Positions 5 through 35,412 of a DNA stretch of 35,412 nt are shown here, piece by piece (positions within the stretch are counted from its first letter, which is position 1; each line of letters begins with the position of its first letter). Origin of the DNA: Spirochaetaceae bacterium (lineage in GTDB: Bacteria > Spirochaetota > Spirochaetia > Treponematales > Breznakiellaceae); NCBI GenBank assembly GCA_031262035.1, contig JAISIL010000211.1:1-35412 (forward strand). The letters are read 5' to 3'. The position numbers were made by a program, and so were the translations under genes. Under the pieces are notes generated by a model, which had not been told where the DNA came from, searched no databases, and saw only the letters and a list, made by a program, of their open reading frames with translations.

Positions 5-31
5 CCCCGCGTCCCCGCGCCTCCGCGTGAG
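5..31. repeat. GC-rich short repeat (CACGCGGAGGCGC family), intergenic copy
   Basis: This copy lies just downstream of the asnS stop codon. Read on the minus strand it is CTCACGCGGAGGCGC followed by further GGNGCG units. The same sequence recurs inside asnS (869-895), iorA (19454-19482 and 19789-19815) and the acyltransferase gene (23345-23372). This is the only copy outside a coding region. Confidence 0.85.
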
Positions 32-36
32 ATATT

Positions 37-1443
37 CTAAAACTCGCACAGACCCACCGCCCGCGGATAGGGAATTACATCGCGGATATTCTGCATGCCG
101 GTCACATATTGGACGAGCCGTTCAAAGCCCAGCCCGAAACCGACGTGGGGTACGCTGCCGTAGCGCCTTAAATCGAGATACCAGTAGTAGTCTTCTGGTT
201 TTAAACCCAGTTCAGTCATTCGTTTTTCCAGTTTTTCAAGATTATCCTCGCGTTCACTGCCACCGATAATTTCACCAAGCCGGGGAACAAGGACATCCAT
301 TGCCCGCACGGTTTTGCCGTCATCGTTTTGCTTCATATAGAAGGCCTTTATCTCTTTGGGGTAATCGGTAACAATCACCGGCCCGCCTGTAAGGTTTTCG
401 GTAAGGTATCGTTCATGTTCGCTTTGCAGGTCGCAGCCCCAAAAAGGCTTAAAATCAAAGGCTCTGCCTTTTGAAACAGCCTTTTCCAATTCGGCAATGG
501 CCTCTGTGTAGGTCAGATGGGCAAATTTTGCATTGGCCACTTTATGAAGGCTGTCGATAATGCCTTTTTCGACGCGCTCATTGAAGAAGGCCAGGTCTTC
601 GGCACAGTCCTTCAAGGCTGTTTGAAAAAGATGCTTCAAGAAGTCCTCGGCAAGGGCCATATCGTCTTCAAGATGGGCAAAGGCAAATTCAGGTTCTACC
701 ATCCAGAATTCGGCCAAATGCCGCGAGGTATTGGAATTTTCAGCACGGAATGTCGGCCCAAAGGTGTAACAACGGCTCAAGGCTGTCGCATAAGTTTCCG
801 CCTCCAGTTGTCCTGATACAGTAAGACTCGTTCTTTTCCCAAAGAAATCTTTCGAGTAATCTATTCCTCCCCGCGCCTCCGCGTCTCCGCGTGAGCTTTC
901 AAGCGTTGTCACTTGGAACATCGCCCCGGCCCCTTCGGCGTCGCTTGCTGTGATTATCGGTGTATTGACATACTGAAAGCCCCGTTCCTGAAAAAACTGA
1001 TGAATAGCAAAGGCCAGGCGATTGCGAACTCGCGCCACCGCCCCAAAGGTATTGGTTCGTGCCCTCAGGTGTGCATTTTCACGCAAATATTCAAGGCTAT
1101 GCCGCTTCTTCTGCATTGGATACTCAGGCGCATCACCAATAAGCCGGACTTCGCCTGCTGCAAGCTCAAGTCTTTGCCCTGCCGCAGGCGAGGGAATCAG
1201 CCTTCCCTTAATCTCTACCGAACAGCCGGTAGTAATCTGCGCCAGAACAGGGGCAGTTTCCTGGTGAGAATCAATATCAAAGGTGCATTGTATATTTGCA
1301 AAAGAGGAGCCGTCATTCACCTCAATAAAAACAAGGTTTTTCATGTCCCGTTTAGTGCGAACCCAGCCTCTGACCAGGGCCTCAAGGCCATCTTTCGTGC
1401 CGGAAGGGTCTGTAGTCAATAAATCTTTTATAAGAGGAAGCAT
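37..1443 (-). CDS. asnS: Asparaginyl-tRNA synthetase
   Basis: Class II cytoplasmic synthetase that charges tRNA-Asn with asparagine in an ATP-dependent reaction. The 468 residues match the family length. An N-terminal OB-fold anticodon-binding domain (about residues 20-105) precedes the catalytic domain, which shows motif 2 (FRAENSNTSRHLAEFW, with VEPE following) and motif 3 (GFGLGFERL) near the C-terminus. It is the last gene of a minus-strand run rpmF-acpP-rnc-asnS, 41 bp after rnc. The ATG is preceded by AGGA about 8 nt upstream, so the start is reasonable. Residues about 183-192 (SSRGDAEARGG) are encoded by a copy of the GC-rich dispersed repeat, in the loop before KDFFGK; the frame is kept and all catalytic motifs are intact. 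My recollection of E. coli AsnS is that a loop of similar length sits here, so this may be a replacement instead of a net insertion. Confidence 0.97.
   Translation of the reverse strand: MLPLIKDLLTTDPSGTKDGLEALVRGWVRTKRDMKNLVFIEVNDGSSFANIQCTFDIDSHQETAPVLAQITTGCSVEIKGRLIPSPAAGQRLELAAGEVRLIGDAPEYPMQKKRHSLEYLRENAHLRARTNTFGAVARVRNRLAFAIHQFFQERGFQYVNTPIITASDAEGAGAMFQVTTLESSRGDAEARGGIDYSKDFFGKRTSLTVSGQLEAETYATALSRCYTFGPTFRAENSNTSRHLAEFWMVEPEFAFAHLEDDMALAEDFLKHLFQTALKDCAEDLAFFNERVEKGIIDSLHKVANAKFAHLTYTEAIAELEKAVSKGRAFDFKPFWGCDLQSEHERYLTENLTGGPVIVTDYPKEIKAFYMKQNDDGKTVRAMDVLVPRLGEIIGGSEREDNLEKLEKRMTELGLKPEDYYWYLDLRRYGSVPHVGFGLGFERLVQYVTGMQNIRDVIPYPRAVGLCEF
869..895. repeat. GC-rich short repeat inside asnS, in frame
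   Basis: This copy matches the sequence at 5-31 with one unit changed (GGAGACGC for GGAGGCGC). It is read in the TCA-CGC frame to give SRGDAEARG. The copies in iorA and the acyltransferase gene use other frames, so the peptide itself is not what is conserved. Confidence 0.85.
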
Positions 1444-2807: not shown

Positions 2808-3927
<1,120 letters not shown>

Positions 3928-3932
3928 TTTTT

Positions 3933-4033
3933 AACCACGAATGGCACGAATGCCTGACGGCACACGAATTTTTAGTTAGAAATATAAGATTATTCGTGTG
4001 GGAGCGTAGCGACCATTCGTGTTATTCGTGGTT
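3933..4033 (+). repeat. Cloverleaf-type intergenic repeat, copy 1
   Basis: Ends are AACCACGAAT and ATTCGTGGTT. The left side hairpin is GCC-TGAC-GGC, the central stem ACACGAAT pairs with ATTCGTGT, and the right side hairpin, GGGAGCGTAGCGACC, is imperfect. The copy fills the gap-pgk gap, ending 22 bp before the pgk ATG. As RNA it could act as a processing or termination structure between the two genes (inference). Confidence 0.9.
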
Positions 4034-4055
4034 CATTTCTTTATAGGAGAAAACA

Positions 4056-8472: not shown

Positions 8473-8480
8473 AAATAAAA

Positions 8481-8569
8481 AACCACGAATAACGCGAATC
8501 CGCCTAACAGCGGACACGAATATCACTTTTCATTCGTGTCGGCGAAGCCGATTCATGTTATTCGTGGTT
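8481..8569 (+). repeat. Cloverleaf-type intergenic repeat, copy 2
   Basis: Outer stem AACCACGAATAACGCGAAT pairs with ATTCATGTTATTCGTGGTT. The left side hairpin is CCGC-CTAACA-GCGG, the central stem ACACGAAT/ATTCGTGT has a short loop, and the right hairpin is CGGC-GAA-GCCG. It lies between the divergent glgX and 8651 promoters. The right flank (about 8570-8598) resembles the outer flank of copy 8. Confidence 0.9.
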
Positions 8570-8600
8570 TTTATGGTTTCAAAGTTGAATGTCTTTCCTC

Positions 8601-12061: not shown

Positions 12062-12084
12062 GGGAGAAATCATTTAAAATAAAA

Positions 12085-12191
12085 AACCACGAATAACACA
12101 AATGATATTGCCTACGGCAAATCACACGAATTTTTGCTTACTAATTGTAGATTATTCGTGTCGGCGAAGCCGATTCGTGTTATTCGTGGTT
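12085..12191 (+). repeat. Cloverleaf-type intergenic repeat, copy 3
   Basis: Outer stem from AACCACGAATAACACAAAT to ATTCGTGTTATTCGTGGTT. The left side hairpin is TTGCC-TAC-GGCAA, the central hairpin is closed by ACACGAAT/ATTCGTGT, and the right hairpin is TCGGC-GAA-GCCGA. It lies between pepF and the argS promoter. Confidence 0.92.
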
Positions 12192-12218
12192 GAAAAAAAG
12201 GTTTGATGTGACAGCTAC

Positions 12219-18314: not shown

Positions 18315-18845
18315 TTATATTTCCAATGCCGCGAAATTCGCATCCCAATGTTTGGGAGGTAATTTTATTTTAATCACCTCCCGAATCTCCTCTGTGCTAA
18401 AGGGCAGAGCCCCATTTTTTATGGCCAAACCCAGCAGCGCTACATTGGTGCTTCGTTTGTTTTGCAGGCTTTCAGGGTCTAAAACAATGATTTTTTCGAA
18501 ATTTTCTTTTAAAAAGGCCAGTAGTTCAGCACTTTGTGCATCGTCTTTTTTCTGCACAACTATTAATGTGCCGTCTTTTTTCACAAAACTGCATACACGG
18601 ACTGCTTCGGCTATATCAAAACCAAGGAGCAGGTCGGCCTGGCCTTCGGGGATAAGCGGGGAATAAATGCTTTCTGTTGATGGGGCAATTCTAATGTGGC
18701 TGGTAACGCTGCCGCCCCTTTGTGCCATGCCGATTGTTTCGCTGCCTCGCACGGCATAGCCTTTTCGTATTGCCGCCTCGCCAATGAGTCTTGCCGCAAG
18801 CACCGTTCCCTGTCCGCCTATGCCGGTTAATAGTATGTTAGTCAT
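18315..18845 (-). CDS. iorB: Indolepyruvate ferredoxin oxidoreductase, beta subunit
   Basis: Gamma-domain subunit of the aryl-pyruvate:ferredoxin oxidoreductase, 176 residues. It begins MTNILLTGIGGQGTVLAARL, the family signature, followed by SETIGMAQRGGSVTSHIRI. The ATG overlaps the iorA stop (ATGA), with GGGGG upstream, so an upstream in-frame ATG at 18872 is rejected. It works with IorA to convert indolepyruvate, phenylpyruvate or hydroxyphenylpyruvate plus CoA into the aryl-acetyl-CoA, CO2 and reduced ferredoxin. The enzyme is oxygen-sensitive, which fits an anaerobe. Confidence 0.95.
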   Translation of the reverse strand: MTNILLTGIGGQGTVLAARLIGEAAIRKGYAVRGSETIGMAQRGGSVTSHIRIAPSTESIYSPLIPEGQADLLLGFDIAEAVRVCSFVKKDGTLIVVQKKDDAQSAELLAFLKENFEKIIVLDPESLQNKRSTNVALLGLAIKNGALPFSTEEIREVIKIKLPPKHWDANFAALEI

Positions 18846-20506
18846 TTTTTGCCCCCGAAGTAGGTGACACATGCCCCCTCAAAAATAATTACCCGGACGC
18901 CGGTTTTGGTAATCATCTTTTTCACTACAGCTACTGCCTCATCGTGTTTGCGACAGTTTACTGTTTCTACATGGTCAACCCCGCAGCCTTTGACAATATT
19001 GGCAATGCTTATCTTTTCTACCGTTTTGCCCATTAAGGTCCTGCCCATGCCGGGATGCTCCTGGCCGCCTGTCATTGCCGTTGTGGAATTGTCCAGCACA
19101 CAGATAATTTCATCGGCGCCATTATACACGGCATTTATTACACCACTCACACCACTTGCAAAAAAGGTCGAATCGCCAATGAATGCAAAATTTACCATTT
19201 TACTGTTTGCATCACGTATTTTTTCTGCACGGTGAATCCCTGCTGCCTGTGTTATGCCTGCACCCATACACAAACAGGTGTCTGTTACCCCAAGGGTATT
19301 TCCCAAGGTGTAACAACCAATGTCCCCTGAATAAACGGCATCGTCTGCCAAACCCATTTCTGCAACAGCGTCCTTCACCGCAGTGAATGAATCGTGGTGC
19401 GGGCATCCCTGGCAGAGAACCGGTGGCCGGGGGGGTAATGGGGGAAGAATTAGCTCACGCGGAGGCGCGGAGGCGCAGAGGGTTTTAATAAGAATATCTG
19501 TGCTTAACTCTCCGGCCGCCGGTACTGTCTTATCGTGCTTACCGTGTATTGTTATGCTTACATGATGCTTGCCGCAAATCCTGAAGAGATTATCTTCAAT
19601 AACCGGGTCAAGTTCCTCGACAACCAAAACTTCATCCAATCCTTCCAAAAAATCTAAAACTAAATTTTCATTAATCGGATATTGATTAATCTTTAGTAAT
19701 CGATATTCTTCATTTGTATTTTTCAGCGCCTCTTGCACATAAGTATAGGACACACCGCCGGTAGCAATCCCTTTGCGTGAGACGGCAACCCCGCGCCTCT
19801 GCGCCTCCGCGTGAGATAATTCCCTTTCCTGCTCGACAATCTTGATATGATTCAAATACGAGGCCCGTGGGAAAATAACCCACTTCCCATTGTCCTTTGT
19901 CCAGCCTTTTACCGGGAGCCCTTCAATCGCCGGCAGCATTTGAACAGATGAATAGGAATGGGACACACGGGTAGTAGGCCGGACAATAACCGGACGGCCC
20001 AGTTTTTCGGAAAGGGCAAATGCTTCTTCCATCATGGTGTATGCTTCTTCCGGCGACGAAGGGTCGAAAACCGGTATGTGGGCAAACTCTGCAAAATGCC
20101 GGGTATCCTGTTCTGTTTGGCTGGAAATAGGGCCGGGGTCGTCGGCAACTACAATTACCATTGCCCCTTTAATGCCCACATAGTTTATACTCATTACCGG
20201 GTCCGCAGCCACATTGAGCCCCATCTGCTTCATGGTCACCAGGACCCGTGCCCCGGCAATGGCAGCCCCGGCAGCGGTTTCCGCAGCGGCCTTTTCGTTA
20301 ACGCTCCACTCGCAGTAGGGCTTATTCGCCCCCCACCCGACCTCCCCCGCAAGGGGGGAGGAGGAAATCTCCCGTGCTACCGTTTCGAGGATTTCTGATG
20401 AAGGCGTCCCCGGATAGCCGCATGCGATATGCAGCCCTGCCCGTAAGGCCCCCAACGCAATAGCCTCATTCCCCATAAGTAAGCGTGTTTCTATACACCG
20501 TAACAT
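18842..20506 (-). CDS. iorA: Indolepyruvate ferredoxin oxidoreductase, alpha subunit, without C-terminal ferredoxin domain
   Basis: Thiamine-diphosphate subunit of the aryl-pyruvate oxidoreductase, 554 residues from ATG 20506. The N-terminal pyrimidine-binding domain has GNEAIALGALRAG and CGYPGTPSSEI; the C-terminal diphosphate domain has CQGCPHHDSF, GDIGCYTLG, FIGDSTFFASG and LDNSTTAMTGGQ. Known IorA proteins usually end in a two-cluster ferredoxin domain of about 70 residues; this one stops at GACVTYFGGKK with no CxxCxxC motif. Three repeat-derived segments lie in frame: residues about 49-56 (core of SSPLAGEVGWG), 231-240 (SHAEAQRRG) and 342-351 (CASAPPREL). The longer frame from 20602 runs through the promoter and is rejected. 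There is no ribosome-binding site; the mRNA appears leaderless. Confidence 0.93.
   Translation of the reverse strand: MLRCIETRLLMGNEAIALGALRAGLHIACGYPGTPSSEILETVAREISSSPLAGEVGWGANKPYCEWSVNEKAAAETAAGAAIAGARVLVTMKQMGLNVAADPVMSINYVGIKGAMVIVVADDPGPISSQTEQDTRHFAEFAHIPVFDPSSPEEAYTMMEEAFALSEKLGRPVIVRPTTRVSHSYSSVQMLPAIEGLPVKGWTKDNGKWVIFPRASYLNHIKIVEQERELSHAEAQRRGVAVSRKGIATGGVSYTYVQEALKNTNEEYRLLKINQYPINENLVLDFLEGLDEVLVVEELDPVIEDNLFRICGKHHVSITIHGKHDKTVPAAGELSTDILIKTLCASAPPRELILPPLPPRPPVLCQGCPHHDSFTAVKDAVAEMGLADDAVYSGDIGCYTLGNTLGVTDTCLCMGAGITQAAGIHRAEKIRDANSKMVNFAFIGDSTFFASGVSGVINAVYNGADEIICVLDNSTTAMTGGQEHPGMGRTLMGKTVEKISIANIVKGCGVDHVETVNCRKHDEAVAVVKKMITKTGVRVIIFEGACVTYFGGKK
19454..19482. repeat. GC-rich short repeat inside iorA, copy A
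   Basis: CTCACGCGGAGGCGCGGAGG plus GCGCAGAGG on the plus strand, so the gene on the minus strand reads its complement as LCASAPPREL. This is the opposite orientation to the copy at 19789-19815 in the same gene. Confidence 0.85.
19789..19815. repeat. GC-rich short repeat inside iorA, copy B
   Basis: On the minus strand CTCACGCGGAGGCGCAGAGG followed by CGCGGGG, read as SHAEAQRRG. It lies in a linker before GVSYTYVQEAL. Confidence 0.85.
20341..20361. repeat. C/G-rich hairpin repeat inside iorA
   Basis: CCTCCCCC and GGGGGAGG pair around a GCAAG loop. Read on the minus strand with its flanks it gives SSPLAGEVGWGA, a peptide I recognise as the translation of a repeat dispersed in many genomes. 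It interrupts the usual short link between GTPSSEILETVA and EWSVNEK. Confidence 0.75.
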
Positions 20507-20541: not shown

Positions 20542-20561
20542 TAGGTGAAAGTAAAAAAAAC

Positions 20562-20668
20562 AACCACGAATAACACGAATGATATTGCCTACGGCAAATC
20601 ACACAAATTTTTGCTTACTTATCGTAGATTATTCGTGTCGGCCTAGCCGATTCGTGTTATTCGTGGTT
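20562..20668 (+). repeat. Cloverleaf-type intergenic repeat, copy 5
   Basis: Outer stem AACCACGAATAACACGAAT with ATTCGTGTTATTCGTGGTT, perfectly paired over 19 bp. The left side hairpin is TTGCC-TAC-GGCAA within GAT...ATC, the central stem is ACACAAAT/ATTCGTGT, and the right hairpin is CGGC-CTA-GCCG with closing T/A. It sits between the divergent iorA and clpP promoters. Confidence 0.93.
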
Positions 20669-20684
20669 GTATAAATGGGAGCAC

Positions 20685-21413: not shown

Positions 21414-22631
21414 ATGAAGTATCGTGTTGACAAAGTTTCCGGCAATAAGCTGTCGGTGTTGGGCTTCGGTTGTATGCGTTTTCCCCATATCGGGCCGGCG
21501 ATTGATATCAATCTAACAGAAAAGTTGATTATGAAGGCTGTCGATGCCGGGGTGAACTACTTCGACACGGCATATCTCTATCCGGGGAGCGAGGACGCCC
21601 TCGGCCAGATTCTGGAACGGAACGGGGCGCGGGACAAGGTCTTTATCGCCTCGAAGCTCCCGATGGTAATGCTCCGCAAGAAAGAGGATATCGAAAAGTG
21701 CTTTCAAACTGAACTGAAGCACCTCCGGACAGACCATATCGATTACTATCTGATGCACATGCTCACCGATTTAGCCCAGTGGGAAAAGTTTTGTTCCTGG
21801 GGCATCGAAGAATGGATTGCCGCCAAGAAGGCAAGCGGGCAAATCCGGCAAATCGGTTTTTCCTTTCACGGAAGCTGTGCCGAGTATTTGAAGATTCTAG
21901 AGAAGTATCCTGCCGACCATCCTTTGTGGGAATTTGCCCAGATACAGTATAACTATTCTGATGAAAACTATCAGGCCGGTGTTACCGGCCTTAAGAAGAC
22001 TGCTGAGATGGGCCTTCCGGTGATTATTATGGAGCCGCTCCTTGGGGGAAAGCTTGCCAATCTTTCAAAAGAGGCTGCGACGATTTTTGCTGATCTGAAT
22101 AAATCACTTGACAAAAACTACAGCCCTGCTGTCTGGGCTTTCCGCTGGCTCTGGAATCAGAGCGAGCCTACGGTGGTTCTTTCCGGTATGAATTCGATGG
22201 CTCAACTTGATGATAACCTTGCCGCTGCAGATGAGGCCGAAGCGGGGATTTTAACAGAGGCAGAGATTGAGGCATACCAAAAGGTGCGGACAATATTCCG
22301 TGCATCTTACAAAATCCCCTGCACCGGCTGCAATTACTGTATGCCCTGCCCGCAGGGGGTGAATATCCCCGGCCTCTTTGCCGCCTACAACACACGCTAT
22401 TCACAGGGCTTTATGTCAGGGATGCAGCAATACATGACCTCTACCCATGTCACCTCAGACCATACCGGCAGGCCGGGTAACTGCATTGCCTGTTGCGCCT
22501 GCGAAAAGCACTGCCCCCAGCACTTACCGATTATACACAATCTGAAAGAGGTCAGGCGAAAAATGGAATTCCAGCCGGTCGGTATTGGTATAGATATTGC
22601 CCGTGCATTCTTGGGTAGAAAAGGTAAGTAA
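21414..22631 (+). CDS. Aldo/keto reductase with C-terminal 4Fe-4S ferredoxin domain
   Basis: A 405-residue oxidoreductase. Residues about 1-290 form the AKR barrel (SVLGFGCMRFP, YFDTAYLYPGSE, FIASKLP, DYYLMHML), giving the catalytic Asp, Tyr, Lys and His. The C-terminal 110 residues carry two cysteine clusters: CTGCNYCMPCPQGVNIP and CIACCACEKHCPQ. This AKR-plus-ferredoxin architecture is common in anaerobes; substrates are mostly unknown. There is no ribosome-binding site; the promoter places +1 at the ATG. The acyltransferase gene starts 1 bp after its stop, and the run continues into the metal transporter genes, so it heads a five-gene operon. Confidence 0.9.
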   Translation: MKYRVDKVSGNKLSVLGFGCMRFPHIGPAIDINLTEKLIMKAVDAGVNYFDTAYLYPGSEDALGQILERNGARDKVFIASKLPMVMLRKKEDIEKCFQTELKHLRTDHIDYYLMHMLTDLAQWEKFCSWGIEEWIAAKKASGQIRQIGFSFHGSCAEYLKILEKYPADHPLWEFAQIQYNYSDENYQAGVTGLKKTAEMGLPVIIMEPLLGGKLANLSKEAATIFADLNKSLDKNYSPAVWAFRWLWNQSEPTVVLSGMNSMAQLDDNLAAADEAEAGILTEAEIEAYQKVRTIFRASYKIPCTGCNYCMPCPQGVNIPGLFAAYNTRYSQGFMSGMQQYMTSTHVTSDHTGRPGNCIACCACEKHCPQHLPIIHNLKEVRRKMEFQPVGIGIDIARAFLGRKGK

Positions 22632-22632
22632 G

Positions 22633-24009
22633 ATGTATAAGCCTTATCAGCTTGCGATTACTGAGGCAAAGGCCGATGTAACTGCCCGGAAGTCTGCTAT
22701 CAGTAAACTTGCCCTTTTTTGTGTGTGGCCGCTTGCACGGCTTTACTGTGCACAGTTTATTGGCGCTGCAAGGGTTCATCTGGAGAATGCACAGTATTTC
22801 TGTGCAGAGTATAATGCTGCACTCTTAAAAAATAAAAGAATGATAATTGCATTCCGCCACCCTTATGGTAATGAACCTGAAATAATGATGTGGTATATTA
22901 TCTATAAACTAAAACGGACAGCAAAAAAATACGGTATAAAATTTTCAAGGCATCCCTTTGTCCGGACTTTATATGGTTATGAGATACTCCGTTGGGGCGG
23001 GCCGCTGGCACGCTGGATTATGCCGCGCATCGGCGCCTTGCCGGTCTATCATGCAAAGATAGACATGGCAAGTATGCGCGAAATCGATAAGGCAATAGAT
23101 GAAGGCCCCTACCCGATAGCCCTTGCCCCTGAAGGCCAGGTAACTTACACAACCGATGAGATTATTCACATAGAGACAGGTGCAATGCGGTTTGGCTTGC
23201 AGGCTGCGAAGCGGCTGGAAAATAAAGATATTCCGGTTGAGATAATGCCTTTTTCGTTCAGGTTTCATTATGGGGAAGGGGCGTGGAGGAAGGTATTCAA
23301 GATGCTGCGTAGGGTTGAAATTCTGTGTGGTATCAATAATAATTCTCACGCGGAGGCGCGGGGGCGCGGGGGTTTTTATACAAGGATTGAGTGCTGTCGT
23401 GAATATATATTAGTACAGAATGAAAAACGGTATGGCATTGATACTGGTGAAAATGATAGACCCCTATCATTCAATGATAGGGTGGATGCAGTTATTGACT
23501 GTGCTTTAAGGCGGACGGAGGAAATTCTGGGGCAGAAGGCACGGGAGGGGAATCTTTTTGACAAGATGTATTATCTGCGGCAATTGAACTGGGATAATAT
23601 TTTTATACCGGGCATGTATTCTTTGAAAAAATTACCCCAGGTGGAACGTTCGCTTGCCGATTTAAAGGCCGGGGAAGCCTGGCATGCATCCCGGCACCTG
23701 GAAATGGTAGATTTTTGTCAATACTTTAAAGGCCCCCTGCCCACTCCGGAAACCTCCTTACATGACACTATTGAATATGTGCAAAACCTTTTCGACTTCG
23801 CAAACCGCACCATGGGCGGCCAATTCAATAGCAGGCGAACCATTATGCCAAGCCGTGTTTCTTTTATTCCCGGCAAGGCCATTCCGGTAAACGAACACCT
23901 GGCAGCCTACAAACAAAACAAAAAAGAAACCACCGAACAATTAACCGAACAATTACGGGAACAATTTTTAGAGACGGCCGCGGAGGCGGCAAAAAATGAC
24001 AGGCGGTAA
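22633..24009 (+). CDS. PlsC-like acyltransferase family protein
   Basis: Predicted glycerolipid acyltransferase of 458 residues. An HX4D-type motif appears as HPYGNE (FRHPYGNEPEIMMW), so the usual aspartate is glutamate. The later block IALAPEGQVTY resembles the PEG motif. The C-terminal 180 residues (from LNWDNIFIPGMY onward) are not part of the standard domain and I do not recognise them. Residues about 238-247 (SHAEARGRGG) come from the GC-rich repeat. An upstream TTG frame (22597) overlaps the reductase gene and is rejected. It overlaps the next gene by 14 bp. The lipid substrate is unknown. Confidence 0.7.
   Translation: MYKPYQLAITEAKADVTARKSAISKLALFCVWPLARLYCAQFIGAARVHLENAQYFCAEYNAALLKNKRMIIAFRHPYGNEPEIMMWYIIYKLKRTAKKYGIKFSRHPFVRTLYGYEILRWGGPLARWIMPRIGALPVYHAKIDMASMREIDKAIDEGPYPIALAPEGQVTYTTDEIIHIETGAMRFGLQAAKRLENKDIPVEIMPFSFRFHYGEGAWRKVFKMLRRVEILCGINNNSHAEARGRGGFYTRIECCREYILVQNEKRYGIDTGENDRPLSFNDRVDAVIDCALRRTEEILGQKAREGNLFDKMYYLRQLNWDNIFIPGMYSLKKLPQVERSLADLKAGEAWHASRHLEMVDFCQYFKGPLPTPETSLHDTIEYVQNLFDFANRTMGGQFNSRRTIMPSRVSFIPGKAIPVNEHLAAYKQNKKETTEQLTEQLREQFLETAAEAAKNDRR
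23345..23372. repeat. GC-rich short repeat inside the acyltransferase gene, in frame
   Basis: CTCACGCGGAGGCGCGGGGG followed by CGCGGGGG, read as SHAEARGRGG between INNN and FYTRIE. It is in the same orientation and frame as iorA copy B. Confidence 0.85.
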
Positions 24010-24922
24010 TAAAAAAACGGGATGCGGTGTAGGGACAGGGCGCGCCCTGTCCCTACGTAGGGGCGGCAAGGGCGTAGCGACGCTACGCCCTTACAACGCC
24101 CCTACCCTGATTGTGTTTACCGTTATCGCACTGTTATCAATTTCCTGCACAAAACCTGTTCCCAGCACAAAACCCCTCATCGCCCTGAGCATTCCGCCTC
24201 AAACCTGGTTCGCAAAACAGATTGGACAGGACAAAATCGACATCCTTCTTCTTGCCGGTGAAGGACAGGACCCCCACGACTATGAGCCCACACAAAGACA
24301 ATTGGCAAGCCTTCAAACAGCCGGCCTCTGGGTTTTATCGGGAACAGAATTTGAAGTTGCCCTGCAGCCGAAAATCAGAGCAATGTATCCGGGCCTGACA
24401 ATCATCAACGGCATTGAGGGCATCAAACTAAAAGACGGCGACCGGCATACCTGGCTGGGAAGAGAGCCTGCAAAAAACATGACAAGGATTATTGAAGCAG
24501 GTCTATCATTCTATGATAGGGCTAATGAAGAATTATACAATAAAAATATGCACACAACTCTTGCACTTATCGATAAAACTTTTGATGAATTAAAAATCAA
24601 ACTGGCACCTTTAAAGGGGAGTGTAGTATTTGTGTATCATCCGGCATTCGGTTATTTTTTTGATGAATTTGGCATTACCCAAATTGCAGTAGAAACAGGG
24701 GGGAAGGAACCTACGGCACGGCAATTGTCTGCATTAATTACAAGGGCAAAGGTGGAAAAGCCTGCTGCAATCTTTGTGCAGAAACAGTTTCCTGCAACGG
24801 CGGCAAGAACAATTGCAGACAGTGTAGGGGCGGCGGTTGTAGAGCTTGACCCATTGGCAGAAGATTGGCTGGGCAACATACAAAAAATCGGAGAGGCGCT
24901 ATTAGATGCATCAAAGCAATAA
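23996..24922 (+). CDS. Metal ABC transporter substrate-binding lipoprotein (ZnuA/TroA type)
   Basis: Cluster A-I solute-binding protein for Zn or Mn, 308 residues. Ligand positions of the family are visible: His in DPHDYEP, His in RHTWLGREPAKN, the VYHPAFGYFFDEFG segment and Asp in ELDPLAEDW. No His-rich loop is present, so Mn or Fe cannot be excluded. A lipobox LLSISC follows a hydrophobic core. The 37 residues before it (GVGTGRALSLRRGGKGVATL and more) are encoded by a composite palindrome, so a repeat supplies the basic n-region of the signal peptide. The ATG lies 14 bp inside the upstream gene; znuC starts 17 bp before its stop. Confidence 0.88.
   Translation: MTGGNKKTGCGVGTGRALSLRRGGKGVATLRPYNAPTLIVFTVIALLSISCTKPVPSTKPLIALSIPPQTWFAKQIGQDKIDILLLAGEGQDPHDYEPTQRQLASLQTAGLWVLSGTEFEVALQPKIRAMYPGLTIINGIEGIKLKDGDRHTWLGREPAKNMTRIIEAGLSFYDRANEELYNKNMHTTLALIDKTFDELKIKLAPLKGSVVFVYHPAFGYFFDEFGITQIAVETGGKEPTARQLSALITRAKVEKPAAIFVQKQFPATAARTIADSVGAAVVELDPLAEDWLGNIQKIGEALLDASKQ
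24029..24105. repeat. Composite palindromic repeat at the 5' end of the znuA-like gene
   Basis: A perfect 28 bp palindrome (24029-24056, half-site GTAGGGACAGGGCG) is followed by a nested hairpin. In the hairpin GTAGGGGCG (24057-24065) pairs with CGCCCCTAC (24097-24105), and AAGGGCGTAGCG (24068-24079) pairs with 24081-24092. The first part matches the ilvB palindrome except for one base pair per half-site. It stays in frame. Confidence 0.9.
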
Positions 24923-25688: not shown

Positions 25689-26503
25689 TGTTACCTTTTT
25701 TGCGCAATGCCTTAATTGCCGGCCTTTTATCCTCGGTGCTCTTTGGTGTGCTCGGTTCTGTTATAACCGTCAGGAAAATTGCCTCTCTTTCAGGCTCTAT
25801 TGCCCATGCGGTCTTAGGCGGTATCGGCATGGCCCTGTTTTTTAGTGCCACCGGGATTCTCCCCAACTTTCCCCCGATAATCGGCGCCTTCATTTTTGCG
25901 GTTATTGCCGCATTGGTGATAGCAGCCGTTTCCCTAAAGGCAAAAGAGCGGGAAGATACGGTGATTAATGCCATTTGGGCAATTGGAATGAGCATCGGGG
26001 TGCTTTTTATGGCAAAAACGCCCGGCTATACCGACCCTTCCTCTTATCTTTTTGGTAATATACTGTTGATTTCGAACAGTGATTTGATTATGATTGCCGC
26101 CCTCGATGTCCTAACCGTCTTTCTAGCCTGGCGTTTTTACCCTCAGATAAAGGCCTCGAGTTTTGATGAGGAGTTTGCCCAGGTTCGCGGCGTGCCGGTG
26201 AAGGCGGTCTACATTGCAATTCTTGTGCTGATTGCCCTGGCGATAGTGCTGCTGCAAACATACGTCGGCATTATTATGGTGATTGCCATGCTGACCCTCC
26301 CTGCCGGCACCGCAGGCTGCTTTAAGACCGGCAGCCTTGGGAAGATGATGTGTGTAGCAAGCATCTTTTCCTGCATCTTTTCGCTGGCAGGGCTTGGTTT
26401 GTCCTGGGTCTGGGATTTACCGACAGGAGCGGTCACGGTGGTTTTCGCAGGTATAGTATTTCTGCTTGCGTCAGGAATACGGGTAATAAGAAGAAGAAAC
26501 TAA
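25688..26503 (+). CDS. Metal ABC transporter permease
   Basis: Membrane subunit of the ABC-3 family, 271 residues with about eight hydrophobic helices. It begins MLPFLRNALIAGLLSSVLFGVLGSVITVRK, with the family segment SGSIAHAVLGGIGMAL following. It pairs with the ATPase and binding protein upstream. GGGGAGG upstream and the TGATG overlap favour ATG 25688 over an in-frame ATG at 25664. The gene ends at the edge of cloverleaf copy 6, and no other terminator is evident. Confidence 0.93.
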   Translation: MLPFLRNALIAGLLSSVLFGVLGSVITVRKIASLSGSIAHAVLGGIGMALFFSATGILPNFPPIIGAFIFAVIAALVIAAVSLKAKEREDTVINAIWAIGMSIGVLFMAKTPGYTDPSSYLFGNILLISNSDLIMIAALDVLTVFLAWRFYPQIKASSFDEEFAQVRGVPVKAVYIAILVLIALAIVLLQTYVGIIMVIAMLTLPAGTAGCFKTGSLGKMMCVASIFSCIFSLAGLGLSWVWDLPTGAVTVVFAGIVFLLASGIRVIRRRN

Positions 26504-26600
26504 CCACGAATGAGCACGAATAGCCTTCGGCTACACGAATTTTTGCTTATTTATCATAGATTATTCGTGTCGGCGAAGCCGATTCGTATTATTCGTGGTT
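26502..26600 (+). repeat. Cloverleaf-type intergenic repeat, copy 6
   Basis: Outer stem AACCACGAAT...ATTCGTGGTT, with GCACGAAT facing ATTCGTAT. The left side hairpin is AGCC-TTC-GGCT, the central stem ACACGAAT/ATTCGTGT, and the right hairpin CGGC-GAA-GCCG. It starts within the stop codon of the permease gene and ends 19 bp before the next ATG, leaving room for little else. Confidence 0.92.
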
Positions 26601-26619
26601 AGTTTTTAAAGGAATTGAT

Positions 26620-27726: not shown

Positions 27727-29517
27727 AACCATTTCGTCCTTGTCTATCTGTGCATTGATTAAAGCCGGCTTGCCATTGCTTATTTCCCCAATAGCCCCTT
27801 CCAATGCTGCCTTGAATGATGCTTCGTCTGTTGCATTAAAACTCTTAATGCTGTAGGCATCGGCAAGCTTCACAAAGTCCGGGGGCCGGTCCAATGTGGT
27901 TTCAGAATAGCGTTCTTCATAAAAGAGGTTCTGCCATTGCCTGACCATACCTAAAACACCGTTATTTATTACAATAATCAGCACAGGCAGATGATAATTG
28001 GCAAGGGTAGCCAGTTCCCCGCAATTCATCCGGAACGACCCATCCCCGGTGAAAAGAACCACGGGCGTGGATGGTTGTGTTGGTTGGAGAGGCGGTTGTA
28101 GGGGCAGGGCGCGCCCTGCCCCTACAGGCCGCCCGACGGTTGCCACGGCAACCGCCGCCCCCATCGCTGCCCCCAATCCATAACCCATAGTCCCGAGGCC
28201 CCCGCTGGTGATAAAATGCCGGGGCTTATTAATCGGGTAAAATTGGGCTGCCCACATCTGGTGCTGGCCGACATCGGTAACAACGACGGCATCATTTTCA
28301 GGGAACTTGTTGTCAAGGGCCTTTGCCGTTTCTTCTATTATAAAACGGGGATGCAGGGCTGTCTTTCGGAAGTTTGCTTCTGGTTTTTCCCTTTTCCAAA
28401 GGGCTATATCCTTTCCCCAGCCGGCAGCCGGTGTCACCGAGGGGAGGCCTGCTTCCCGTGGGGGAATCTTCTGAATCATTGCCGTCAATATATTCTTTAT
28501 ATCGCCAATAATACAATCATAACTGGGAATATTCTTGTTTATTTCTGCAGGGTCAATATCAATGTGCAGTATCTTTGCCTCATTTGCAAAGCGGTCGGCA
28601 CGGCTGGTAACCCGGTCGCTGAAACGGGTGCCGACAACAATCAGCAAATCGGCAGCCTGCACGGCCTTGTTGCTCGCCACTGTGCCATGCATGCCAATCA
28701 TTCCCGTGCACAAAGGATGGTTTGCAGGCATGGCCCCAATTCCCATAAGGCTGAGGGCAACCGGCGCACCAAGCCTTTCAGCAAAGGTCTTTAACTCATC
28801 ATTTGCACCACTGATAATCACACCACCGCCTGCAAAGAGAAGGGGGCGCTTGGCGCTCTGCATCAGGCCAAGAGCCCGGTTAATATCAGCATCAGTCCAG
28901 GTTTGCCTTGCATTTCGTTCTGCAAGCCGCAGGGCCCGCCCGCCGAGCACCGAAGCAGGACGCTCGAGAAAGGCTTGAACGCCCAGCGTAGAACCCGGAG
29001 CATATTCAGTGGTCTCCGAGGTAATATCTTTTGGAATATCAATCAATACCGGGCCGGGGCGGCCGGAACGGGCAACAACAAAGGCTTCGCGGACAATCTC
29101 GGCAAGGTCGTTTATATCCCGGACAATCCAGTTATGCTTGACAATCGGCATCGTGATGCCTGCTATATCAACCTCCTGAAAAGAATCCTTCCCCAAAAGA
29201 GGCGTCGAGACATTCCCGGTAATTGCCACAAGAGGGATAGAATCCATGTAGGCCGTGGCAATTCCGGTAACAAGGTTTGTAGCGCCGGGGCCACTTGTAG
29301 CAAGACAAACACCGGCCTTCCCTGTCGCCCGGGCATAGCCATCCGCCGCATGGGATGCATGCTGCTCGTGACTGACAAGAATATGACGAATCCGGTCCTT
29401 CTGCTTGTAAAGTTCATCATAAATAAAGAGAACCGTCCCACCGGGGTAACCAAAAATCGTGTCAACACCCTGTTCAATCAGGGATTCAATCAAAATTCGC
29501 GCGCCTGTGTATTTCAT
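27679..29517 (-). CDS. ilvB: Acetolactate synthase large subunit
   Basis: Thiamine-diphosphate enzyme that condenses two pyruvates, or pyruvate with 2-oxobutyrate, in the first shared step of branched-chain amino acid synthesis. The 612 residues include GYPGGTVLFIYDEL with the catalytic Glu in SHEQHASHAADG, the FAD region, TGDGSFRMN for the metal-diphosphate site, and the ending DKDEMVLPMVPGGKPIDEMI. Residues about 454-476 (GRPVGAGRALPLQPPLQ and flanks) come from a palindromic repeat inserted just before VVLFTGDGSF. No regulatory subunit gene (ilvN) or other ilv gene is adjacent. No Shine-Dalgarno sequence precedes the ATG; a promoter places +1 at the start codon. Confidence 0.95.
   Translation of the reverse strand: MKYTGARILIESLIEQGVDTIFGYPGGTVLFIYDELYKQKDRIRHILVSHEQHASHAADGYARATGKAGVCLATSGPGATNLVTGIATAYMDSIPLVAITGNVSTPLLGKDSFQEVDIAGITMPIVKHNWIVRDINDLAEIVREAFVVARSGRPGPVLIDIPKDITSETTEYAPGSTLGVQAFLERPASVLGGRALRLAERNARQTWTDADINRALGLMQSAKRPLLFAGGGVIISGANDELKTFAERLGAPVALSLMGIGAMPANHPLCTGMIGMHGTVASNKAVQAADLLIVVGTRFSDRVTSRADRFANEAKILHIDIDPAEINKNIPSYDCIIGDIKNILTAMIQKIPPREAGLPSVTPAAGWGKDIALWKREKPEANFRKTALHPRFIIEETAKALDNKFPENDAVVVTDVGQHQMWAAQFYPINKPRHFITSGGLGTMGYGLGAAMGAAVAVATVGRPVGAGRALPLQPPLQPTQPSTPVVLFTGDGSFRMNCGELATLANYHLPVLIIVINNGVLGMVRQWQNLFYEERYSETTLDRPPDFVKLADAYSIKSFNATDEASFKAALEGAIGEISNGKPALINAQIDKDEMVLPMVPGGKPIDEMIT
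28091..28156. repeat. Palindromic repeat inside ilvB, in frame
   Basis: A perfect 28 bp palindrome (28098-28125, half-site GTAGGGGCAGGGCG) is followed by CGGTTGCC-AC-GGCAACCG (28137-28154). The outer GGCGGTTG (28091-28098) can also pair with CAACCGCC (28149-28156). The 28-mer matches that in the znuA-like gene and is read in the same frame (VGAGRALPL against VGTGRALSL). Confidence 0.9.
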
Positions 29518-29552: not shown

Positions 29553-29573
29553 TAGGTTTTACTCCAGAATAAC

Positions 29574-29680
29574 AACCACGAATAACACGAATGATATTGC
29601 CTACGGCAAATCACACGAATTTTCGCTTACTTATTGTAAATTATTCGTGTCGGCCTAGCCGATTCGTGCTATTCGTGGTT
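29574..29680 (+). repeat. Cloverleaf-type intergenic repeat, copy 7
   Basis: Nearly identical to copy 5. The left side hairpin is TTGCC-TAC-GGCAA, the central stem ACACGAAT/ATTCGTGT, and the right hairpin CGGC-CTA-GCCG; the outer stem has one mismatch (AACAC/GTGCT). It sits between the divergent ilvB and 29757 promoters. Confidence 0.93.
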
Positions 29681-29708
29681 CATAAAAAGACAGCATAAAA
29701 AGCGGCAC

Positions 29709-35248: not shown

Positions 35249-35412
35249 CAGGGCAAAATCATTTAACTTTGAAATCATAAAAAAACAACCACAAATATAC
35301 ACGAATCGGCTTCGCCGACACGAATATTCTATGATAAGTAAGTAAAAATTCGTGTGGCCGAAGGCCATTCGTGTTATTCGTGGTTACTATAAAGTTAAAT
35401 GATTTTGCCCTG
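35249..35412 (-). repeat. Cloverleaf-type intergenic repeat, copy 8, with an extra outer inverted repeat
   Basis: The core at 35287-35385 has side hairpins CGGC-TTC-GCCG and GGCC-GAA-GGCC and central stem ACACGAAT/ATTCGTGT. Its central loop is the reverse complement of those in copies 3, 5, 6 and 7, so it is inserted the other way round. It is enclosed by a perfect 22 bp inverted repeat (35249-35270 and 35391-35412, beginning CAGGGCAAAATC), the right arm of which ends exactly at the window edge. Confidence 0.9.

Follow-up and report, generated by a model that had tools for sequence, protein, structure and literature searches.

We found that iorA, the gene for the alpha subunit of indolepyruvate:ferredoxin oxidoreductase, carries three repeat segments from two families, each in frame within an intact open reading frame and each in a linker of the protein. 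We read these segments as the traces of two unrelated small repeat families: a hairpin that was inserted, and a pair of facing MITE/REPIN-like arms that would have been laid down by a substitutive, repair-patch-like process. To this reading we assign a probability of about one half. The window, i.e. the whole stretch of 35,412 nt that was analyzed, is contig C164 of a 3.07-Mb genome (215 contigs, 99% complete), and its features are collected in Table 1.

Table 1. Genes and repeat elements of the window, with positions, strands and remarks
Feature	Position	Strand	Remarks
Family A arm, intergenic, at the window edge	5-31	-	
Family A arm, in frame inside asnS	869-895	-	Encodes SRGDAEARG
Copies of the third repeat family	3925-4050, 8473-8583, 12075-12201, 20552-20678, 26484-26610, 29564-29690, 35272-35390		
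iorB, beta subunit, adjoining gene	18315-18872	-	No repeat inside
iorA, indolepyruvate:ferredoxin oxidoreductase alpha subunit	18842-20506	-	554 codons, intact; TIGR03336 match
Segment 3, family A arm	19454-19480	+	Outer end CTCACG at 19454; encodes LCASAPPRE on the minus strand; net -7 aa, apparently replacing native codons
Native IorA coding sequence between the two facing arms	19481-19788	-	Alignment with homologues
Possible truncated start of an arm, CTCACGCAAAG, continuing into the native codons KGIA	19771-19781	-	Two such in the sample, about two expected by chance; may be due to chance
Segment 2, family A arm	19789-19815	-	Outer end CTCACG at 19815; encodes SHAEAQRRG; net -5 aa, apparently replacing native codons
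Segment 1, REP-like hairpin element (family B)	20329-20361	-	Encodes SSPLAGEVGWG; reads as a plain insertion
Family A arm, in frame inside ORF 22597-24009	23345-23371	+	

Repeat segments in iorA and in the rest of the window

The ThDP/PFOR core of the iorA product is conserved. Its best match among named genomes was to a Treponema MAG, which may point to a treponeme, perhaps one of a termite gut, and the 80 IorA loci obtained from relatives all came from other genera. Of the two marks of membership that we considered, a TIGR03336 score over the curated cut-off of 650.9 and the C-terminal 2x[4Fe-4S] ferredoxin domain, neither was found: the score was 581.8 (E=1.4e-174), and the domain, present in 92 of 92 compared homologues, is lacking. 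At 18842-18870 the protein stops 9 residues on from the conserved Cys546, where all 92 homologues continue with a two-cluster ferredoxin domain of 63-100 residues, and iorB directly overlaps iorA at this ferredoxin-less end. The junction is free of repeats, and the truncated end is a clean domain loss. An AlphaFold2 model of IorA (mean pLDDT 72.6) matched ThDP enzymes in its overall fold and placed all three repeat segments between secondary-structure elements, largely in stretches with a pLDDT below 50 (51-59, 233-242 and 346-366). The original prediction was right in describing three in-frame segments of two families between conserved blocks of the enzyme, and all three were found at the positions it gave. 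The segment residues are absent from the IorA homologues rather than present in most of them, the outcome that would have told against the prediction.

Segment 1 belongs to family B, of which we found 30 members in a 1.31-Mb sample of the genome, the iorA copy counted. The full element of 33 nt consists of a C-rich head and a perfect 8-bp stem, the hairpin CCTCCCCC-GCAAG-GGGGGAGG lying at 20341-20361. Between conserved anchors the linker measures 23 residues in IorA compared to a median of 11 in 91 homologues (+12 aa), and as the subtraction of 11 codons leaves 12 residues, close to this median, we read the segment as a pure insertion. Judged by its sequence, segment 1 is an ordinary in-frame insertion of a REP-like hairpin; the length of this loop is variable in relatives too.

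Two further repeat families were noticed in the window. The third family, ACCACGAATAACACGAAT...ATTCGTGTTATTCGTGGTT, measures about 110-130 nt and has several copies. The fourth, TGTAGGG(G/A)CAGGGCGCGCCCTG(C/T)CCCTAC, occurs at 24028-24056 and 28097-28125, close to where a ZnuA-like gene starts and within ilvB. An Rfam search of the window gave no match.

Sequence and distribution of the family A arm

Segments 2 and 3 belong to family A, a 27-nt GC-rich repeat of the form CTCACGC(RRAGNCGC)nRRAG. The family pattern CTCACGCRRAGNCGCRRAGNCGC gave 117 exact matches in the genome compared to 0 for the reversed control pattern, which excludes a chance origin. Among 118 other genomes of the order one was positive, with four copies on one contig; in this sole other genome of the order with the arm (G104:C38:114924-119803; L318, L320, L321 and L323) the copies lie within 5 kb and all point in the same direction. 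Arm statistics were taken from the 1.31-Mb sample, which is less than half of the genome and in which contigs with known repeat matches were favored, so that densities are biased.

In this sample 103 of the 128 longer copies are exactly 27 nt long. The base preceding the arm is G or T in 97% of cases, and positions -2 to -6 are A-rich and almost free of C, within genes as well. Beyond the 27-mer, 33% of the arms share an extension scoring at least 8 with another arm, compared to 0.9% in shuffles; from these shared extensions and the fixed start it follows that an arm has a fixed outer end but a ragged inner one. The arm of segment 3, for example, continues with the shared GGTTTT to about 19487. 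No notable palindromic core is present in the arm itself. Full-length arms were located in frame inside ORFs in 67 of 124 cases, and arms of at least 19 nt inside long ORFs in 71 of 136. The genes concerned include those for GltB, OraE, CysS, AspS, GlnS, IlvD, PolA, Lon, PcrA, MutS2, ProA, thymidine phosphorylase (TP) and a fused shikimate kinase/dehydrogenase. Arms are read in each of the three sense frames (SHAEAQRRG, SRGGAEARG and LTRRRGDAE), and, apart from one spurious entry, the antisense frame in which TGA would be read is avoided; this frame preservation is partly a matter of ascertainment, because the ORFs were chosen for being open.

At the arms we observed no target-site duplication, only a weak excess of 3-nt flank matches that is unsupported by any single offset. 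The PF01797 search of the whole genome revealed no Y1/RAYT transposase, and mobilization of family A by a RAYT was rejected on this ground. A search within the genome for related empty sites, made via repeated flanks, yielded one paralogue and otherwise only junctions with a further repeated element. A literature search for sequence strings returned only primer-like false matches.

The repeat class was also found in Gemmatimonadota, Alphaproteobacteria, Cyanobacteria and phage contigs, with arm matches at 29 and 26 places on two replicons of Gemmatirosa, in plasmids of Sphingomonadaceae and Nostocales, and in 85 stretches of phage contigs. Neighbors up to 400 nt apart on the phage contigs comprised 40 facing, 5 outward and 21 same-direction pairs. 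Strains of Sphingobium show alternative repeats at one intergenic site; among the plasmid strains compared at intergenic sites every one had arms or other repeats, and no empty site with a clean border was found. In Sphingobium sp. TomTYG72 (L414) a palindromic insert of about 140 nt (CTAGGGCCGCTCGACATTC...GAATGTCGAGCGGCCCT) directly follows the right-hand arm, and TomTYG74 has a near-empty site.

Effect of the arms on linker length

If arms were purely added, the linker minus nine codons should have the length of the homologous linker, i.e. the net change should be +9. At both GC-repeat sites IorA is, arms included, the shortest of 93 proteins (22 residues compared to a homologue minimum of 24, and 23 compared to 25), from which we conclude that segments 2 and 3 replaced native codons. 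The original prediction had treated all three segments as inserts, which holds for the hairpin but not for these two GC repeats. Removal of the arm leaves a linker shorter than in all homologues at eight of the nine sites with homologue sets (AspS, three in GltB, ProA, TP and two in IorA), the exception being IlvD (+10), which looks like plain addition.

Further net changes, which on the whole agree with this result, were counted from printed alignments with solved structures, a comparison used for OraE since this protein is absent in relatives. We obtained -1 and +7 aa for OraE, +7 for PcrA, +6 for phosphoglycerate mutase, -3 for NAD synthetase, 0 and +6 for the Cu-ATPase, +1 and +5 for AroK, and +12 for GlnS, which again looks like plain addition. 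In CysS a complete pair of 26 codons occupies the place of about 30 homologue residues; the Lon arm lies within a linker too long for comparison. Altogether, the net change of 19 arms was -7 to +2 aa in 12 cases, +5 to +7 in five and +10 to +12 in two. That family A arms usually appear to replace native codons rather than to add to them is, as a phenomenon, well supported by these sequence comparisons. The ancestral linkers, which were inferred from other genera, could already have been short before the arms arrived.

Alternatively, plain 27-nt insertions into linkers could have been followed by separate small deletions, favored by selection restoring the linker length. In favor of such a course, every case is found in a tolerant place, and relatives differ in linker length. 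However, the arms are near the consensus, which makes them recent, linkers longer by 20-50 residues are tolerated in relatives so that there is little pressure for trimming, IorA ended shorter than 92 of 92 homologues, and the polarity of the arms described below would be left unexplained; we therefore consider this course very unlikely.

In a relative of another genus (G008) we noticed that the same linkers, in IorA (L042, site 3) and in GltB (L283/L280, near residue 853), contain another, proline-rich repeat (PPPTPPPGGE/PPPTPPKGGE), which indicates that these places were invaded independently.

Arrangement of the arms in facing pairs

Segments 2 and 3 are the two arms of a single inward-facing family A pair: they form a 30-nt inverted repeat at 93%, separated by about 310 nt of intact IorA coding sequence. 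The bases outside both arms, 19447-19452 and 19817-19822, are inversely matched (GAATTA/TAATTC), and other pairs have no such match. Ordering 146 arms along the contigs, we observed 40 facing, no outward and two same-direction pairs among neighbors up to 400 nt apart, and no facing excess beyond 600 nt. Thirty of the facing pairs are short (61-131 nt overall, mostly with element-like spacers) and ten are long (arm starts 126-335 nt apart), the iorA pair among them; about 4.5 neighbors of all orientations together are expected by chance in the distance range of the long pairs. Single arms numbered 66. The interior was native gene in five checked of the ten long pairs, namely those in iorA, gltB, oraE, the Cu-ATPase gene and aroK. 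Within a long pair the two arms resemble each other without being identical (3.6 mismatches compared to 5.8 in shuffled pairs, p=0.0008), and this likeness suggests a common donor.

The two oppositely oriented GC-rich copies of the original prediction are therefore real, and we can add that they face each other in an arrangement that is found genome-wide. The proposed insertion hotspot in iorA is not supported, because one pair accounts for two of its three segments and because two or three arms each are also found in gltB, aroKE and further genes. Strong tolerance at linkers, the other explanation offered, is supported as a filter, but accounts for neither the facing polarity nor the overwriting. 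Selection for an RNA hairpin was rejected as the cause of pairing, as outward pairs would give the same stem and none was seen. As to a related autonomous transposon with the same ends, no facing pair at 1-8 kb was found in the sample, which covers less than half of the genome.

According to a classical MITE/REPIN scheme, a trans-acting transposase would insert a complete hairpin of 60-130 bp, from which one arm, the spacer and some flanking gene would later be deleted owing to the instability of the palindrome, so that solo arms and missing codons result. The thirty short pairs with their element-like spacers fit this scheme, as does the observation that solo family A arms often retain a stub of spacer, and REP singlets in Pseudomonas have been interpreted as REPIN remnants (PMC3116915). 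However, the scheme explains the solo arms but would not produce facing arms around intact native coding sequence, and neither a RAYT nor a target duplication was found, which makes it in our judgment unlikely for family A.

Proposed mechanism

We infer a substitutive mechanism of arm installation. The process would start where two 3' ends point inwards at A-rich sites, such as at the borders of a repaired gap, and each of these ends would be extended by copying the arm of one donor from its outer end inwards. Synthesis would afterwards resume on the native template at a distance of up to about 50 nt, and the codons skipped in this way would be lost. Single arms may represent one-sided events or remnants, and selection would retain in-frame copies in tolerant linkers. 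Such patching from a donor copy would account jointly for the facing polarity, the native interior and the lost codons.

A variant of the patch process might be templated by RNA: a 3' end at an A-rich site would prime reverse transcription of a small element transcript ending in GCGUGAG(A/C)UUUU, which would give the copy a fixed start and a ragged end and would cost bases of the target. The A-rich flank, the fixed outer end and the ragged inner end are in line with this variant, and the genome contains two reverse transcriptase loci. However, neither of these genes is tied to the repeat, the first being a broken group II intron and the second standing in a setting like that of diversity-generating retroelements beside a DUF6273 protein, and we regard the variant as highly improbable. 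The intron reverse transcriptase is split over two frames (L156:15782-17303, G000:C51), and the other reverse transcriptase gene lies directly behind that for the DUF6273 protein (L129:3327-5780, G000:C119).

Only tentatively, and with more doubt than confidence, we consider the broader view that a previously undescribed, cross-phylum substitutive mobile-repeat process, possibly RNA-templated, overwrites sequence on either side of intact native DNA with a 27-nt arm, the two arms facing each other, and that in this bacterium it rewrote linkers and, in shikimate kinase, even the helix that follows the P-loop.

Comparison with known systems

Rickettsia palindromic elements (RPE) and other intragenic bacterial MITEs (ERIC/RU-1, NEMIS) are small repeats that occur in frame in conserved protein genes, in several reading frames, and also in intergenic regions (PMC2229807). 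Family A resembles RPE in lying in frame within conserved protein genes. However, RPE, ERIC/RU-1 and NEMIS are whole palindromes of about 100-200 bp described as insertions, whereas family A has a 27-nt arm that appears to replace codons and pairs across native gene sequence; in place of the RPE palindrome of about 105-146 bp, most genes contain a non-palindromic arm of 27 nt. Of the features of MITEs, terminal inverted repeats around a short non-coding interior are seen in the 30 short pairs, whereas the 10 long ones enclose other sequence (native gene in five), 66 arms are single, and target-site duplications are lacking.

REP sequences and REPINs are short repeats arranged as inverted doublets within 400 nt, their singlets being presumed remnants (PMC3116915). 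Family A is similar in that inverted doublets are over-represented at short distance (40 of 42 neighbor pairs up to 400 nt), but differs in a genome without a Y1/RAYT gene, in an arm without a notable palindromic core and in a variable distance between arms. REP/REPIN sequences are moreover mainly extragenic, and family A, with more than half of its full-length arms in ORFs, is not.

In template-switch mutation between inverted repeats, short stretches of coding sequence are overwritten, and an inverted repeat arises or is made perfect (PMC8604942). This type of mutation predicts facing as well as outward pairs and arms copied from each other, whereas family A neighbors up to 400 nt apart are all facing except for two in the same direction, and their arms are non-identical. 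The outward pairs that template switching on a local inverted repeat would also give are not seen. Diversity-generating retroelements replace a stretch of a gene by copied sequence rather than adding to it. Their resemblance to family A is functional only, as family A has neither a pair of template and variable repeat nor an A-to-N mutation pattern, and has many unrelated targets.

In the literature we found no report of facing repeat pairs that overwrite protein linkers of conserved genes. Bacterial genes with small in-frame repeats have been on record since the RPE, and such repeats are treated as insertions. If it is true that the arms of a cross-phylum family replace codons, and do so as facing pairs around an intact gene, dispersed repeats would act as ready-made patches that swap protein linkers and nearly keep their length. 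This would be a distinct route of protein evolution, and overwriting by family A would yield testable predictions on how repeats spread without a known transposase.
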